From assembly GCF_001261735.1 (NCBI RefSeq), contig NZ_CVRP01000004.1:1-64000 (forward strand): a stretch of 64,000 nt of DNA. The letters are read 5' to 3'. Shown piece by piece: positions 32,515 to 42,228 of the stretch. Position numbers and translations under genes: made by a program. Below the pieces are notes generated by a model, which saw only the letters and a list, made by a program, of their open reading frames with translations, did no database searches and had not been told where the DNA came from. Origin of the DNA: Dysgonomonas sp. BGC7 (lineage in GTDB: Bacteria > Bacteroidota > Bacteroidia > Bacteroidales > Dysgonomonadaceae). How positions within the stretch are numbered: position 1 is the stretch's first letter; each line of letters opens with the position of its first letter.

Positions 32515-33585
32515 TCAACCTTTTATATAATTAACAATCCAATCTCCGACTTCGGATGTCGAATGAACTTTACCTCCGTTAAGAGATATATCTTCTGTTA
32601 CCACTCCTGCATCCATAGAGGCGTCAACAGCCTTACGGATAAGCGAGCCTTCTTCATGTAAATTGAAAGCATACTCGAACATCAATGCAGCAGACAGAAT
32701 AGTAGCCAACGGGTTAGCAATATTTTTTCCGGCAGCCTGAGGATAAGATCCGTGTATAGGTTCAAATACTGATGTGTGAATACCTATAGACGCTGAAGGC
32801 AACATTCCTAATGAACCTGTAATAACAGATGCCTCATCGGTAAGTATATCTCCAAACAAGTTTTCTGTAACAAGCACGTCGAAGCGTTTAGGCCATTGTA
32901 TAATCTGCATTGCAGCATTGTCTACAAACATATATTCTGTTTCCACATCAGGATATTGTTTTTCTATCTCCTGTGCCACCTGACGCCACAAACGAGATGT
33001 AGCCAACACATTCGCCTTATCTACAACTGTTACTTTCTTACGGCGCATACGGGCATATTTATACGAAAGGTGCAAGATACGCTCAACTTCCTCACGTGTA
33101 TATACACATGTATCGTAAGCTGTGTCACCGTCCTCACTACGACCTTGAGGACGACCAAAATACATACCACCGGTAAGTTCTCGCACACACATAAAATCAG
33201 CTCCATCTACAAGATCGGCACGTAACGGAGATTTGTGTATCAAAGAAGGGAAAGTAGATACCGGACGGATATTTGCATATAAACCCAGTTTTTTACGCAT
33301 AGCTAAAAGTCCTTGCTCGGGACGTACTTTTGCCGATGGATTATTATCGTATTTAGGATCGCCGATAGCTCCAAAAAGGACTGCATCCGAAGCCATACAC
33401 AATTCATGTGTACCATCCGGGTATGGATTTCCTACTTCGTCTATAGCTGTGGCTCCCACTACTCCGTATTCATAAGACAATTCATGTCCGAATTTTTCAC
33501 AGATAGCCTCTGTTACTCTCAATGCCTGTCCAATTATCTCAGGCCCGATCCCATCTCCGGGAAGTACTGCAATGTTTAATTTCAT
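32515..33585 (-). CDS. leuB: 3-isopropylmalate dehydrogenase
   Basis: NAD-dependent oxidative decarboxylation of 3-isopropylmalate in leucine synthesis; LeuB-type enzymes also act on the methylmalate formed in the citramalate route. Motifs include [40 protein letters not shown] and [19 protein letters not shown]. Length 356 is normal. It starts only 5 nt after the LTA-synthase-like gene and ends the cluster at a strong terminator. Confidence 0.96.
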
Positions 33586-33590
33586 ATGAT

Positions 33591-35624
33591 TTATTTTAAG
33601 TAATTATCAAAAATATAATTTGCACTTCTTATCATTGATTCTGAATAGCACTTCATGCTATCAGCTCTCTTCCTTTCTTCAGTAATCCTGTTTGTGGTTT
33701 CTTTATCGGCTAGTCTATAAAGATATTCATGTTTATATGAAAAATCGTAAAGATAATAATATTCCTTATCCAAACAGGCAAGCTTATTTCCTGTAGAAAA
33801 AAATACATATTTCCTCTCTTGCTTAAAAAGGTCAATTCCGTAAGTATTATAAATAACAGGAAGACCGGCCAATCCCATAACTGTGGGATACACGTCTATC
33901 TGACAGCCCAGATTAGATATTTTCTGAGGTATATTTTCAAATAATGGTGAATAAATAATGAGCGGAATATGAGTCAGCGACAAAGGCATCTCGTAGCTGC
34001 TTGTTGCTTGCGATCCAACCTCATAAGTCTTTCCATGATCTCCCAAAAAGATAAATATTGTATTCTTATACCATTCTTCTTGTGAAGCCTTTTCCATAAA
34101 CTGACGAAAACAATCATCGGCATATGCGATCGCGTTCATATCTTCATACGGGGTGGTATTTTCAAATTCTGCAGGATAAACAAATGGAGGATGATTACTG
34201 ATAGTGAGTATACTTGTAAAAAAAGGCTTATTAAGTTGGGATAAAGAATCTATCTTTTCTAAAGAATGACTCATAAGGGATTTATCAGAAACACCCCAGA
34301 TATTAACTCGTTCCGATTGAGGATAATCCTCTTGACCAAATAATTGATCGAATCCGTTGGCTGGATAGAAGAAATCTATATTATCGAAACTCTTACGGTG
34401 TGTTATCAGCGATATGGTATTATAACCGTATTTTCTCAATTCGTTAGGCAAACCATGATATAGCGGCACATTTTTTCTTACGTCATTTAATTCTTCATTC
34501 CGGCCTTCTTCTATATTCAAAGACACAGGAACTTTCATTAACATATGCTTATCGAATATATTGGGAAAACCATATAAAGTAGAGACTATACCTTGATTGG
34601 TATGTATTCCTTGAGAATAAAAATTATCAAAATAGATAGATTTTTCCGTCAATCCTTTCAGGAATGGGATCAATGGTTTATCATTATCTTTCTTCGCATC
34701 CAGATAATAAGAAGATAATGATTCTACAAAAACAAGGACAATATTAGGTTTATTACTTATAGAATGCTGATTACTATCAATTGAATCCCGTCTGTAATAA
34801 TCGGGTGATGATATATCAAAACCTAGATATTGAGTTGCATGCTCAAGCACGTCTTTTTCATCGTTCCATGATTCCAACTGTGTTATTACTGAAGTCTGAC
34901 CAATAAAAAAAATAGGATTTATAGTCATTTGACGTAGCATAACCTTTTCAAAACAGTTAGATTTTTCTATGATCTTATCCCGTTCTATCAAGCAGGCAAT
35001 ATTCCAAAAAACAAACACATATACCACAATGAGTGAAACGATATATTTAAGCGGTGTTTTTTTAAATTGAACTTCACCGATAAATCGTTTCCGTATTGCA
35101 GATGTAACCTTTATTAAAATAAAAATATAAGCAGAAAAAGAGACTATTATCAATATAAAAAACTTCAGGAATGAGGCATCCTGCAAAATCATACCCGACA
35201 CTTCGTTAAAATAGCCAGCCCATTGAAATACATCAAATTCTATATGTCTTCTGAAATAATGGAAATAGGGTATATCGGCCACTGTAATGGCAAAGACGAA
35301 GAACATACAGATAATTATATAAATATTCGCAATCCTCAACACCTTCTTGTTTAAAGTATTGAAAAGAGCCAATATCGGCAATACCAAAGTAGGCAAAAGA
35401 AGTATAGTACAAATTATAGTGGTATCAAAACTAGCCCCAAGCAAAAATCCTTCTATAATTCTCAGATAATACTCCTTAATAGAAATTTCGATCAAGGCAT
35501 TTGTATAGAAAAAGATCAGTCTGAAGATCGCAAGAAACAATAATGACAGTAATAATATAGATAAAAGATAGACTATCGCCCCTATAAATTTATTGTCTAA
35601 CTTATTTTTTATTTCTTTAATCAT
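33591..35624 (-). CDS. LTA synthase-like membrane sulfatase/phosphotransferase
   Basis: Five N-terminal helices (about residues 10-225) anchor a periplasmic alkaline-phosphatase-superfamily domain. The metal and nucleophile region is visible as [12 protein letters not shown], the [15 protein letters not shown] threonine segment, [10 protein letters not shown] and the PLIIYSP stretch. Homologues transfer phosphoglycerol or phosphoethanolamine to envelope glycans or lipids. The acceptor here is unknown. It is an odd neighbour for leuB, which follows by 5 nt and must share its transcript. Confidence 0.88.
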
Positions 35625-35924: not shown

Positions 35925-37442
35925 CTACATATCCTCTATTATATTCAACATTTTCTCTGTTGCTTTAACAGCAGCCTCGGTTTGGTCGGCATCTAATCCT
36001 CGCGTTTTGAAGCTCTTTCCGTTAAACTCCCATGTAATAACTGTTTGTACCAACGCATCGGTACGTCCACCCGGTGGGATATACACAGTATAGTTGGTCA
36101 GTATAGGTATTGGTTTGTTCAAACGGGTATATATTTTATACAAGGCCTTAGAGAAAGCATGATATTGTCCGTCGCCCGGAGCAGTCCATTCATACTCTTC
36201 ACCATATATTTCGATACGTACTGTGGCAGTCGGACGAAGACCTTTGGTGAGGACAAATGCAAAAGATAGGATCTTTATCCGTTTTTCCTTCTCATTGTTC
36301 TTCAATACATCAGTAATAATATACGGAAGATCGTCCTGCGTTATTATTTCTTTCTTATCACCAAGTTCAATCACGCGGTTTGTTACCTTCGCCATATCCG
36401 CCTCGTCAAGTTCTATCCCCAGAGCTTCTATATTTTTACGGATATTGGATTTGCCGGAAAGTTTTCCGAGAGCATATTCTCTTACCCGACCAAAGCGTTC
36501 AGGGAACAAGTCGTTGAAATACAGATTATTTTTATTGTCTCCATCGGCGTGTATTCCTGCACATTGAGTAAATACATTATCTCCGACAATAGGCTGATTG
36601 GCCGATATGGTTTGTCCGGAAAAAGATTCTACCACCCGGCTCACCTTATTTATATTTTCTTCTCTTATAGATGTTTCAAGCTTCAACTGATCGTGAAAGA
36701 CTGCTATAACACTAGCCAGCGAAGCATTACCGGCACGCTCTCCAAGTCCGTTCATGGTCACATGTACACCTTTTACCCCAACCTCTGCCGCAACCATTGT
36801 ATTTGCCACAGCCAGATCATAGTCGTTATGCGCATGAAAGTCGAAATGCAGATCAGGGTATCGGTTTATCATCCTACGGCAACAGCGCCATACGCTATGG
36901 GGATTGAGTATTCCCAATGTATCAGGAATCATAAAACGCTTTATTGGTAAGTCCTTCATTCCGTCCATCATAAAATAAACATAATCTTCGGAATGTATTA
37001 TCCCATTCGACCAATCCTCGAGATATACGTTGACCGTTATGCCCATCTTATGAGCCAGCTCTATTTCCGATCTTACATCCGCCAGATGTTGCTCGGGGGT
37101 TTTACGCAACTGCTCGGTTACATGTTTGTATGATCCCTTTGTCAACAGATTGATTGTCTTACAACCAGCATCTTTTATCCATTGCAAAGAAGCTCCTTTG
37201 TCTATGAATCCTAATATTTCTATTTTATCAATATGGCCGGTAGCAGCAGCCCAACTCGCAATTTTCTTTACGGTAGCAAACTCTCCGTTCGATACCCGGG
37301 CGGAGGCTACTTCCAACCTATTGACTCCCAGATCGACAAGAAGTAGGTGAGCTATACTCATTTTTTCCTGAGAAGAGAACGAGACACCTGATGTCTGTTC
37401 CCCATCTCTCAGGGTTGTATCCATTATTTCTATCATCATCAA
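35925..37442 (-). CDS. alpha-isopropylmalate/citramalate synthase family protein, likely (R)-citramalate synthase
   Basis: A 505-residue DRE-TIM enzyme with [27 protein letters not shown] and GLGERAGNASLASV, and a LeuA-type C-terminal regulatory domain (about residues 380-505). It is diverged from the leuA product of the same cluster. Citramalate synthase, condensing pyruvate with acetyl-CoA to feed isoleucine through LeuCDB, is the likely role. The Ile-rich leader upstream of the cluster supports this. A second isopropylmalate synthase or homocitrate-type activity remains possible. Confidence 0.8.
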   Translation of the reverse strand: MMMIEIMDTTLRDGEQTSGVSFSSQEKMSIAHLLLVDLGVNRLEVASARVSNGEFATVKKIASWAAATGHIDKIEILGFIDKGASLQWIKDAGCKTINLLTKGSYKHVTEQLRKTPEQHLADVRSEIELAHKMGITVNVYLEDWSNGIIHSEDYVYFMMDGMKDLPIKRFMIPDTLGILNPHSVWRCCRRMINRYPDLHFDFHAHNDYDLAVANTMVAAEVGVKGVHVTMNGLGERAGNASLASVIAVFHDQLKLETSIREENINKVSRVVESFSGQTISANQPIVGDNVFTQCAGIHADGDNKNNLYFNDLFPERFGRVREYALGKLSGKSNIRKNIEALGIELDEADMAKVTNRVIELGDKKEIITQDDLPYIITDVLKNNEKEKRIKILSFAFVLTKGLRPTATVRIEIYGEEYEWTAPGDGQYHAFSKALYKIYTRLNKPIPILTNYTVYIPPGGRTDALVQTVITWEFNGKSFKTRGLDADQTEAAVKATEKMLNIIEDM

Positions 37443-38465: not shown

Positions 38466-39056
38466 TTACAAAGTATGCTCTTTTTCATACTTCTCTGTCA
38501 CTCCTTTTTTAGAAAGCAAATAGTCTATATCATCAAGACCTTTAAGAAGGCATTCTTTTTTATAAGGATTTATCTCGAAACCTTCCGACCGACCTGTTGC
38601 ATTATTGGTTATTGTCTGCTCTACCAAATTGATGGTTAATGTAGCTTTCGGATCAGAATTTACCGATGCAAATATTTCTGACAGAAATTCGGGAGTAACA
38701 ATAACAGGCAATACCCCATTATTCAGCGCATTGTTTCTGAAAATATCGGCAAAGAAACTCGATACTACCGCCTTAAATCCATATCCGCCGACTGCCCATG
38801 CAGCATGTTCGCGACTGGATCCGCTACCAAAATTTTTTCCGGCAACAAGTATTTCTCCACTATAAGTGGGATTATTCAAAACGAAGTCAGCTTTAGTACT
38901 GCCATCTTTGTTGTAGCGCCAATCGGCAAAAAGATTGTTTCCGAAGCCTTCCTTGTCTGTTGCTTTCAGAAAGCGAGCCGGTATTATCTGGTCTGTGTCC
39001 ACATTTTCGATAGGTAGTGGAACATATGTCGAGGTAAGAGTTTGAAATTTTTCCAT
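38466..39056 (-). CDS. leuD: 3-isopropylmalate dehydratase small subunit
   Basis: The swivel-domain subunit of isopropylmalate isomerase, 196 residues. Visible signatures are VDTDQIIPARFL and the substrate loop GKNFGSGSSREHAAWAV. It partners the LeuC subunit encoded 33 nt upstream and is probably also used in the citramalate route. Confidence 0.96.
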   Translation of the reverse strand: MEKFQTLTSTYVPLPIENVDTDQIIPARFLKATDKEGFGNNLFADWRYNKDGSTKADFVLNNPTYSGEILVAGKNFGSGSSREHAAWAVGGYGFKAVVSSFFADIFRNNALNNGVLPVIVTPEFLSEIFASVNSDPKATLTINLVEQTITNNATGRSEGFEINPYKKECLLKGLDDIDYLLSKKGVTEKYEKEHTL

Positions 39057-39089: not shown

Positions 39090-40481
39090 TTAAATTGAAC
39101 GTGGATCTGTTATCCGCCCTGTTACTGCTGCTGCTGCTGCAACTAAAGGGCCTGCCAGAATAGTGCGTGCACCTGGTCCCTGACGGCCTTCGAAATTACG
39201 ATTAGATGTCGATACAGCATATTTACCCGCAGGCACTTTATCGTCATTCATAGCCAAGCAAGCTGAACATCCCGGTTGACGTAGTTCGAAACCGGCCTCT
39301 GTAAGTATCGTATCCAAACCTTCTGCTTTTATTTGGTCTACAACCATATGGCTACCCGGAACAAGCCATGCAACCACATTATTGGCTTTCTTCTTCCCTC
39401 TTACAAAATTGGCAAAAGCACGGAAGTCTTCTATACGACCATTTGTACAGCTACCAAGAAAAACATAATCTATCTGTTTTCCTTCTACCTTTTCTCCTGG
39501 TTCAAAACCCATGTAATCCATAGACTTACGGAAAGAGATCCTTCCTGCCTCATCTATCTGATCCAAAGTAGGTATAGATTCATTTATACCCATACCCATA
39601 CCCGGATTGGTACCATAGGTTATCATTGGTTTAATCTCCGAAGCATCGAAAGTAAGCTCTTTATCAAATTTAGCGCCTTCATCTGTTTTTAATGTCTTCC
39701 AATAAGCTAAGGACTTGTCCCATTCCTCGCCCTTAGGAGCAAATTCACGGCCTTTCACATAGCTGAATGTAGTTTCGTCCGGAGCTATAAGCCCTCCGCG
39801 AGCACCCATTTCTATACTAAGATTACAAAGTGTCATACGTTCTTCCATCGACATATTGCGTACCGCTTCTCCTGCATATTCTACAAAATAGCCTGTAGCA
39901 CCACCTGTAGTCAACTTAGATATCATATAAAGAGCCAAGTCTTTTGCTGTTACACCTTCACCAAGTTTCCCGTTGAAAGTAATGCGCATCGTTTTAGGAC
40001 GGCTCTGCAGTACACATTGCGAAGCCAATACCATTTCCACTTCGCTGGTTCCTATACCGAAAGCAATGGCTCCGAATGCTCCATGTGTTGATGTATGGCT
40101 ATCTCCACATACAATAGTCATACCCGGCTGAGTAAAACCATTTTCGGGTCCGATTATATGAACTACTCCATTTTTTCTGTTTCCTAACGCATATAAAGTA
40201 AGACCAAACTCTTCTGCATTTCTAGACAGAGTATCTAATTGGTTCTTAGAAACAGGGTCTTTTACAGGCTGATCCTGATTTATAGTAGGAGTATTATGAT
40301 CTGCCGTCAAGGTTGTTTTATCGGGACGAAACACTTTCAACCCTCTAGTTCGAAGCCCGTTAAATGCTTGCGGACTTGTTACCTCATGGCAAAAATGACG
40401 ATCTATATACAACTGAGTAGGACCATCTTCTACGGCAGACACAACATGTGCATCCCAAATCTTATCGAATAATGTTTTCAT
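39090..40481 (-). CDS. leuC: 3-isopropylmalate dehydratase large subunit
   Basis: The aconitase-like catalytic subunit, 463 residues. The [4Fe-4S] cysteines are in [13 protein letters not shown] and [12 protein letters not shown], and the [16 protein letters not shown] segment is typical. It lies 36 nt after leuA and 33 nt before leuD, consistent with a single transcript. Confidence 0.97.
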
Positions 40482-40517: not shown

Positions 40518-42008
40518 TTATATTGTAAACTTATTAACTGCATTTATAAATGCTTCTACAGATGCTACAACTATATCTGTATGTGCAGAGAATCCATAAT
40601 AATTTATACCATCATGCGATACCTGCATATGCACTTTACCCGTATCATCACTACCTTTATTTATAGCTTGAATAAGAAACTCCTCTATTACCATCTGACG
40701 CTTTATGATTTCCTTTACTGCTTTTATTGCAGCATCTACAGGACCGTTCCCTGTAGCCGAAGCCTGAAACTTCTCTCCCGCTATATCGAGTCCGACAACT
40801 CCTATACATTTCACTCCAATACCGGAAGTAACCTGCATATAATCCAATTTTATACGGTGCATCTTATCTGTTTCTTTTCCGGCAAGTATCAGAATATCCT
40901 CATCAGTAATATCTTTCTTTCTGTCGGCAAGCTCTAAGAAACGTTGGTACAATTCGGATAATTGATCGTCATTAACATCAATATTCAACAAATTCAATCG
41001 GTTCTTTAGAGCAGCTCTTCCGCTACGGGCAGTCAAAACAATAGCATTATCATCAATTCCGACTTCTTTGGGATCAATGATTTCGTATGTAGAAAGGTTC
41101 TTCAATACACCATCCTGATGTATTCCTGATGAATGGGCAAAAGCATTACGCCCAACAATAGCTTTATTCGGCTGCACAGGCATATTCATCAGACTGGATA
41201 TCATACGGCTGACAGGATATATTTTTTGTGTATTGATATTCGTCTCAATATCCAACTCCTTATGGCTCTTTATAGCCATCACAACCTCTTCTAAAGAAGT
41301 GTTTCCGGCGCGTTCACCAATTCCGTTTATTGTAACTTCTACCTGACGAGCTCCATTCAAAACCCCCATAATGGAGTTTGCTGTAGCCATCCCCAAATCT
41401 TGATGGCAATGAGTAGAAAGAATAGCATTCTTCATATCCACATTGTCAATAAGGTATTTTATTTTTGCACCATATTCCGTTGGCAAACAATAGCCCGTTG
41501 TATCAGGAATATTGACTACAGTAGCACCTGCATTGATAACAGCCTGTACAACGCGAGCTAAATAAGCATTATCTGTGCGTCCTGCGTCTTCGGCATAAAA
41601 CTCCACATCTTCTACAAATCGTTTAGCATATTTTACAGCTGCAATAGCTCGTTCGACGATTTCATCGGGTGTAGAGTTAAACTTATGACGTATATGATAT
41701 TCAGATGTACCTATACCTGTGTGTATTCTCTTCTTTTTTGCGTACTGTAAGGCTTGAGCCGCAACTTCAATATCTTTTTCTACAGCACGGGTCAATGCAC
41801 ATATAGTAGGCCAAGTCACAGCTTTTGATATTTCGACTACCGATTTAAAGTCGCCCGGGCTCGACACCGGAAAACCTGCTTCGATAACGTCTACACCGAG
41901 CGATTCGAGGGCTTTAGCCACCTCTATTTTTTCAATAGTATTCAACTGGCAACCAGGAACTTGCTCTCCATCTCTCAATGTAGTGTCAAAAATAAATAAC
42001 TTGTCCAT
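40518..42008 (-). CDS. leuA: 2-isopropylmalate synthase
   Basis: First committed enzyme of leucine synthesis, condensing 2-ketoisovalerate with acetyl-CoA. It has [14 protein letters not shown], the metal-binding [14 protein letters not shown] and [15 protein letters not shown]. The C-terminal regulatory domain (about residues 385-496) should bind leucine for feedback control. Length 496 is normal. It is the first structural gene after an attenuator carrying an Ile/Leu leader peptide, so transcription should depend on charged tRNA-Ile and tRNA-Leu. Confidence 0.97.
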
Positions 42009-42050
42009 AATTTTTTTAATTGATTTATAATACTTTTTTACATAAAAAAA

Positions 42051-42078
42051 CCTTTCTCATCTTTACGAGTGAGAAAGG
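42051..42078 (-). terminator. attenuator terminator in the leuA leader
   Basis: On the minus strand a perfect 9-bp stem, CCTTTCTCA with TGAGAAAGG, and a 10-nt loop are followed by seven T (42044-42050). It stands between the leader peptide and leuA and would stop transcription before leuA. Confidence 0.9.
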
Positions 42079-42166
42079 CTCTAGTTTTTCTTTATATATA
42101 CTACATAGCAATGCTCACCCTAAATTTCTCCAGAGGATAATGAGTGAACTAATAATAATACTATGT
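42062..42166 (-). promoter_or_regulatory. attenuator folding regions (antiterminator and pause hairpin)
   Basis: TTTAGGGTGAG (42114-42124), which includes the leader stop codon, can pair with CTCACTC-G-TAAA (42062-42073), with one bulge and one G-U. This would block the 5' arm of the terminator. The same GGGTGAG can instead pair with TTCACTC inside the leader (42142-42148), closed by ACATAG (42161-42166) with CTATGT (42103-42108). These are the 1:2, 2:3 and 3:4 pairings of a classical attenuator. Stalling at Ile or Leu codons would favour 2:3 and read-through. Confidence 0.75.
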
Positions 42167-42174
42167 GTGATCAT
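42115..42174 (-). CDS. leucine/isoleucine operon leader peptide
   Basis: A 19-codon frame reads MITHSIIISSLIILWRNLG and stops. Six of 19 residues are Ile, including ATT ATT ATT and ATT ATC runs, and three are Leu; there is no Val. It starts about 16 nt after the predicted transcription start and ends 37 nt before the attenuator terminator. Its likely role is ribosome stalling to sense Ile and Leu supply, not a product function. Confidence 0.82.
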   Translation of the reverse strand: MITHSIIISSLIILWRNLG

Positions 42175-42197
42175 TGTAATCTTTTCTATATGATTGA

Positions 42198-42228
42198 CAA
42201 AGTTATTTCAAATTTTGACAAACACAAA
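42198..42228 (-). promoter_or_regulatory. promoter of the leuA operon
   Basis: On the minus strand TTTG (42225-42228) and TAACTTTG (42198-42205) are separated by exactly 19 nt, a full match to the Bacteroidota sigma consensus. The predicted start is near 42190. Confidence 0.8.

Follow-up and report, generated by a model that had tools for sequence, protein, structure and literature searches.

Organization of the leuA locus

The window, by which we mean the whole analysed stretch of 64,000 nucleotides from Dysgonomonas sp. BGC7, carries on its minus strand a leuA gene for 2-isopropylmalate synthase (40518–42008; NCBIfam TIGR00973 and NF002086). Downstream of it on this strand come leuC (39090–40481; TIGR00170), leuD (38466–39056; TIGR00171), a hydrolase-like gene, a citramalate-synthase-like gene, a phosphoglycerol-transferase-like gene and leuB (32515–33585; TIGR00169). 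All matches of the leu genes lie above the family cut-offs, whereas those of the three remaining genes lie below them. The cimA-like gene (35925–37442) had as its top match the citramalate synthase of Leptospira type (NF042433) with 653 bits at a cut-off of 950, and a homologue is located downstream of leuA in 51 of the 58 loci with more than 7.5 kb of downstream DNA. The gene between the cimA-like gene and leuB (33591–35624) resembles a phosphoglycerol transferase or lipoteichoic acid synthase, and only 2 of 58 loci carry a homologue.

Where isoleucine is made by way of citramalate, LeuB, LeuC and LeuD take part in its synthesis too. Since the operon carries a citramalate-synthase-like gene, it probably feeds isoleucine as well as leucine, and the presence of isoleucine codons in a leu leader makes sense for the same reason. 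The initial annotation had placed a leucine operon under attenuator control; the leu genes are indeed found downstream, but isoleucine should probably be added to its products. Citramalate may not be the sole route to isoleucine, because the genome also holds a threonine-deaminase-like gene (305 bits, below the cut-off of 378.75).

Upstream of leuA, whose start lies at 42008, the minus strand contains a predicted promoter of the Bacteroidota type, TTTG-N19-TAACTTTG (42198–42228, with TTTG at 42228–42225 and TAACTTTG at 42205–42198). Downstream of it a leader peptide frame, MITHSIIISSLIILWRNLG with its stop codon (42115–42174), can be read from the sequence; its 19 codons include six for Ile and three for Leu. 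The putative control codons are Ile6-Ile7-Ile8 and Leu11-Ile12-Ile13-Leu14 (42133–42159), as judged from the sequence and from masked folding. An intrinsic terminator hairpin with a tail of seven T (42044–42078) separates the frame from leuA, with nine base pairs between CCTTTCTCA (42078–42070) and TGAGAAAGG (42059–42051) and the T tract at 42050–42044. Promoter motif, frame and hairpin had all been described in the initial annotation and were found at these positions, the promoter being a prediction from the sequence. A generic terminator scan of the minus strand did not list the hairpin because its loop is longer than the limit of 8 set in that scan. A promoter scan with a model of another type than the Bacteroidota TTTG promoter returned three sites in comparison to a shuffle mean of 2.9.

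Between promoter and terminator several segments are able to pair in alternative ways. Strand 2, GGGTGAG (42114–42120), contains the leader stop codon and would form the 5' strand of an antiterminator. It is complementary, with G-U pairs allowed, to CTCACTC (42073–42067) within strand 3, CCTTTCTCACTC (42067–42078), which is common to antiterminator and terminator, and likewise to the inner strand TTCACTC (42148–42142), with which it can pair in the predicted fold of the window. An outer or protector stem is predicted between ACATAG (42166–42161), within the leader frame, and CTATGT (42103–42108).

Recurrence of the leader layout upstream of leuA

Judging an attenuator from the window sequence only was rejected: the pairing of strands 2 and 3 was equalled by 7.5% of 40 mononucleotide shuffles and the outer stem reached a shuffle z of 0.5, neither of which is significant. 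We analyzed 134 leuA upstream regions, consisting of 80 named loci (the best 80 of 592, an uneven sample) and 54 family regions, the latter comprising 29 loci of relatives, 24 further stretches and the window. A leuA match was present in 55 of 61 family genomes; G054, an end fragment, was left out. At least three genomes occur in both sets (L004/L083, L005/L087 and L007/L093). Among the matches listed, LeuA is 90–95% identical to the nearest records labelled Dysgonomonas.

As anchor we used a terminator of the same form, which was placed automatically in 108 of the 134 regions and by hand in seven more (L031, L061, L063, L066, L080, L082 and L123). Anchors were thereby obtained in all 54 family regions and in 61 of the 80 named loci, leaving 19 named loci that had none after automatic and manual anchoring. 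The weak anchors of L054, L056 and L071 were counted but excluded from the representative set. At the expected place of the leader upstream of leuA in L024, a tRNA-gene-like sequence was seen by eye. In some loci the generic terminator scan chose other hairpins or none, and anchors were then set with a loose pyrimidine motif. As such a motif makes CCTTTC look more conserved than it may be, a stricter detector was run without any motif, requiring a terminator and a frame of 12–40 codons dense in Ile, Leu and Val. The motif-free detector was positive in 47/54 family and 44/80 named regions, compared to 3/4257 random windows from the named loci (two of them at one place) and 1/1340 shuffled upstream regions. 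The combination of a terminator with an Ile/Leu/Val-rich frame at leuA, as predicted from these sequences, is therefore more than chance, and the recurrence of the Ile/Leu-rich frame that the initial annotation had proposed to look for by aligning leuA upstream regions is borne out.

Removal of eight near-identical sequences reduced the 115 anchored regions to 107, and exclusion of the incomplete L080 to 106. Seven of these yielded no frame under our frame rule, resulting in 99 leaders; L015 and L056 among them seem to have been given a wrong frame. Of the 99, 91 lay within a range of 14–24 nt and were used for folding. Alignments A1, A2 and A3 contain 22, 34 and 30 of the 107 sequences. An RNA model with the terminator as its sole structure (R1) matched in 36 of 119 genomes of the order and 34 of 198 of the class, denominators that disregard the presence of leuA and hence give no prevalence.

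Composition and probable translation of the leader frame

In the 99 leaders the start codon is ATG in 96 cases, GTG in one and TTG in two, both of which look wrongly framed. Ile, Leu and Val account for 43% of leader residues in comparison to 25% in 78 LeuA genes. Codon choice differs as well: Ile is encoded by ATT in 81% of cases in leaders versus 34% in leuA, and Leu by CTA in 30% versus 3%, with kinship among the sequences ignored in all three comparisons. The leader of the window itself contains no CTA codon. We also compared the eight-codon core pairwise at each codon position, which was possible for 79 of the 99 leaders. In all four groups differences were fewest at position 2 and most frequent at position 3, most clearly in the A1-like (0.30/0.13/0.36 at positions 1/2/3) and A2-like (0.30/0.11/0.35) groups, the comparison being one among the frame's own positions. 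These biases suggest that the frame is probably translated.

A TA-N1-2-TTTG box was present 5–60 nt upstream of the start in 88 of 99 leaders as opposed to 4 of 93 segments, each 55 nt long, taken as control. Initiation without Shine-Dalgarno pairing, as assumed in the initial annotation, fits the leader starts: a Shine-Dalgarno-like motif (GGAG, GAGG or AGGA at −20 to −4) precedes only one of the 99, and the stretch ahead of them consists of 48% A.

Pairing of antiterminator, terminator and protector

In the 22 Dysgonomonas-like rows, 96.6% of the cells of strands 2 and 3 were paired, as were 98.7% in 34 further rows, mostly from other family members, while slid registers of the antiterminator reached at most 72.1%. 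Across 106 sequences strand 2 scored 21.5 with its own strand 3 and 18.2 with foreign partners. No covariation was detected in antiterminator or terminator within the 22 Dysgonomonas-like rows, since the strands hardly vary there. At position 8 of strand 3, the triple formed by strands 2, 3 and 4 is U-A-U in 78 sequences and C-G-C in 4, a change that may reflect one or two events. An intrinsic terminator thus lies between the leader frame and the first gene, and the predicted antiterminator shares strand 3 with it.

The outer stem scored 18.2 with its own partner and 14.9 with foreign ones, with a median shuffle z of 1.3; a matching stem exists in the 34 relatives of the further set, where 70.0% of cells were paired. 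Taking protector and terminator together in these 34 rows, 83.0% of cells were paired versus at most 51.3% in slid registers, the covariation score was 0.170 versus 0.135 in shuffles and at most 0.088 in slid registers, and 32 cells had changed on both sides versus 18.0 in shuffles. Two of five measures did not exceed shuffles in this set. Slid registers nearly matched the two-sided changes (up to 31 cells versus 32, and up to 9 pairs versus 8), so that on these alignments the actual register appears clearly separated from them solely by the fraction of cells paired and the covariation score. RNAalifold applied to 30 sequences recovered the terminator alone and not the protector stem.

The inner stem (42148–42142 with strand 2) was paired in 83.1% of cells in the actual register and at most 63.6% in slid ones. 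In the 22 close relatives it showed no two-sided change, and three of its seven pairs were broken in 7, 8 and 10 of them, so it was rejected as a general feature. The conserved protector, as predicted from these comparisons, is the outer stem (42161–42166 with 42103–42108), the inner stem being lineage-specific. Of the alternative pairings attributed to the stop-codon region in the initial annotation, the complementarity is thus present in the window, but the inner pairing is not general among relatives.

Distance of the control codons to strand 2

Relative to strand 2, the reading frame of 52 of the 99 leaders is in register 2, that of 26 in register 1 and that of 21 in register 0, with differences among lineages. 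The last Ile or Leu codon starts 17–21 nt upstream of the G in the GTGAG core of strand 2 in 85 of 99 leaders; when codons less than 14 nt from the core are ignored, the number rises to 91. In the framed leaders the first nucleotide of the stop codon lies −3 to +30 nt from the core, a range whose lower bound is partly set by the frame rule, which admitted no stop more than about 9 nt upstream of the core. Of the seven leaders dropped by this rule, six have frames that end −1 to +3 nt from where strand 2 begins; for L022 strand 2 was misplaced in that comparison. A ribosome covers about 12 nt of RNA in front of its A site. The distances fit a ribosome that would barely clear strand 2 while waiting at the last Ile or Leu codon and would cover strand 2 upon arrival at the stop codon.

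Folding of the predicted states

We determined minimum-energy folds of the 91 leaders for transcripts that stop behind strand 3, with a mask on the upstream RNA to imitate a stalled ribosome. With the stall at the last Ile or Leu codon the antiterminator formed in 91/91 folds; moving the stall 9, 18 or 27 nt further upstream left it in 88, 85 and 79, respectively. With the ribosome at the stop codon it formed in 0/91, a result given largely by construction as strand 2 is masked. Without a ribosome the antiterminator was present in 19 leaders and absent in 72; after shuffling of the RNA upstream of strand 2 it was present in 448 of 546 folds and absent in 98. In the family subset the corresponding values were 8/42 and 211/252. 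This rise upon shuffling indicates that in the folding model the upstream RNA is holding strand 2 away from strand 3. Folding with its shuffle control and the pairing of the outer stem thus both point to a protector that would hide strand 2 when the leader is not translated.

In the window, stall masks at Ile6, Ile8, Ile12, Ile13 or Leu14 gave the antiterminator if the transcript ended after strand 3. In the complete transcript the terminator formed under every mask tried, including those of stalled ribosomes. Hence, if the folds are taken at face value, antitermination must be kinetic and depend on order and timing. Known attenuators likewise depend on order and timing.

Proposed mechanism and alternative explanations

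We consider it very probable that the leader represents a ribosome-mediated transcription attenuator ahead of leuA which senses charged Ile and Leu tRNA, a prediction drawn from comparison of sequences and from modelled folds. Transcription would start near 42190, as the promoter motif suggests, and a ribosome would initiate at the A-rich, Shine-Dalgarno-less AUG at 42174. When Ile and Leu are plentiful, the ribosome would reach the stop codon within GGGTGAG and cover strand 2, whereupon strands 3 and 4 would form the terminator and leuA would not be transcribed. When Ile or Leu is short, it would stall at codons 6–8 or 11–14 and keep the 5' half of the protector open, which would let strands 2 and 3 pair with each other; the terminator would not form and the Leu/Ile operon would be transcribed. 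In the absence of a ribosome the protector would hide strand 2, with termination as the default. We infer in this scheme the transcription start, the translation of the frame, the speed and coupling of the ribosome and the response to amino-acid supply. The short frame is rich in codons for the end products, and its stop codon is placed such that a terminating ribosome would cover strand 2. The 1:2, 2:3 and 3:4 arrangement of a ribosome-stalling attenuator claimed in the initial annotation is supported by the conserved codons, their spacing, the stop position, the pairings and the protector.

A 5' leader with mutually exclusive stems would equally be expected if another ligand or a protein governed the terminator (a riboswitch, a T-box or an RNA-binding repressor) and the frame were incidental, and the 19 of 80 named loci that are devoid of an anchor agree with this as well. 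We nevertheless give this explanation little credence. None of the 4227 families of Rfam 15, T-box and riboswitch families included, matched in the window at the gathering score, and a search of L007, L069 and L012 at E values up to 1 returned one weak match, to SNORD46 (E 0.1), that lies off the leader. Moreover, the content of the frame, its codon-position bias and the codon-to-strand spacing are kept despite shifts in register. Still less probable, in our estimation, is that a small hydrophobic protein with a function of its own is encoded here and a terminator just happens to follow the frame: the peptide is hydrophobic and its composition conserved, yet its length, its stop and the residues outside the Ile/Leu/Val stretch vary between lineages, and base pairs link codons of the frame to the segment beyond strand 2. 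The coincidence of an ordinary constitutive terminator with a chance frame deserves equally scant weight. It would account for pairing scores that are not significant in the window alone, but the detector counts against random and shuffled controls given above refute it as a general account, with 47 of 54 family regions satisfying the same two-part definition. Attenuation by a stalling ribosome hence remains the reading we adopt.

Relation to known attenuators

Enterobacterial leu, ilv, his and trp attenuators consist of control codons, protector, antiterminator and terminator, and the rare Leu codon CTA is enriched in E. coli leuL. The enterobacterial leu leader has an Rfam family. The leuA leaders described here share this set of elements and, over the leader set, the enrichment of CTA. 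They differ from their enterobacterial counterparts in mixing Ile and Leu, in some lineages with Val, and in the lack of a Shine-Dalgarno motif in 98/99; the window moreover gives no Rfam match at the gathering score and its own leader is free of CTA.

Attenuation of this kind is not new to Bacteroidota. The genome itself contains, on another contig, one copy of RF01692 (Bacteroid-trp, the Bacteroidete tryptophan peptide leader RNA), which PMC2864571 lists as a probable cis-regulatory motif of Bacteroidetes. This copy has, by eye, the frame MNFLLTNTFWWWLLQLKKS and precedes a trpB-like gene. Like the leu leader, RF01692 combines a leader peptide rich in the amino acid of the operon with a subsequent terminator; unlike it, RF01692 has Trp codons, and its model found no match in the window or in the leu loci L007, L069 and L012. 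In Flavobacterium psychrophilum, a member of the same phylum, PMC9723704 presents strong indications that operons for amino acids are preceded by leader peptide attenuators, similar to what we propose here; section 19 of that paper names structured 5' elements including those of hisG and pheA, leuA not being among the ones named there. Long 5' UTRs of B. thetaiotaomicron hold short frames reminiscent of leader peptides, according to PMC7366714, and leader genes close to structural genes, in Bacteroidetes among others, are treated in PMC4833913. Among the matches listed in the main text of open-licence PMC papers, no title announced a leuA attenuator in Bacteroidales. On this background the leu leader appears, on comparative sequence evidence, as a well-supported further case of known leader-peptide attenuation.

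Leaders of similar layout were noticed before other genes. In the same genome an Ile/Leu/Val leader, MTNCFLHILIIDILLVDQNK by eye, precedes ilvD (G000:C10:260821-260949; L142, L148). It shares with the leu leader the CCTTTCTCA terminator core and a AATGAGAAAGG strand and is the second-best R1 match in the genome (57 bits); it differs from the leu leader of the window in containing a Val codon and in its position before ilvD. A His-rich leader, MNNNTHHHHFILLPLGK, with a terminator lies before hisG (G000:C7, L143), and in the family (hisG loci L188–L215) frames with at least three His precede this gene in 25 of the 26 loci in which its start was located, out of 29 given, as a raw count. By eye we further observed, in the same class, a Cys-rich frame MKTINFNTCSSLVCCCKNSGRALIVFK with a terminator before a serine acetyltransferase-like gene (L165), possibly a cysteine attenuator, and Ile/Thr- or Ile/Val-rich leaders with terminators before aspartokinase-, ilvN- and ilvE-like genes (L161, L164 and L172). 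L162 contains, also by eye, two Ile/Val-rich leader frames with terminators, seemingly in tandem. Inspection of some 150 nt upstream of the aspartokinase-homoserine dehydrogenase gene revealed no leader.

Implications

We lean slightly towards the view that one common, Shine-Dalgarno-free scheme of leader-peptide attenuation operates in Bacteroidota, comprising Leu/Ile, Ile/Leu/Val, His and Trp leaders, with Thr, ilvE/ilvN and Cys represented by single examples seen by eye. If this is true, the first ribosome trails RNA polymerase closely in Bacteroidota, and control codons track the wiring of the pathway, as exemplified by Ile in the leu leader via the citramalate synthase of the operon.

The leu leader itself would represent a regulatory RNA family that recurs widely across the leuA loci of Bacteroidales analysed here and has no Rfam 15 match at the gathering score. 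This family would control the synthesis of branched-chain amino acids in common gut bacteria. Because the switch requires immediate loading of a ribosome that then keeps up with RNA polymerase, it would allow transcription-translation coupling and Shine-Dalgarno-free initiation in Bacteroidota to be tested directly.
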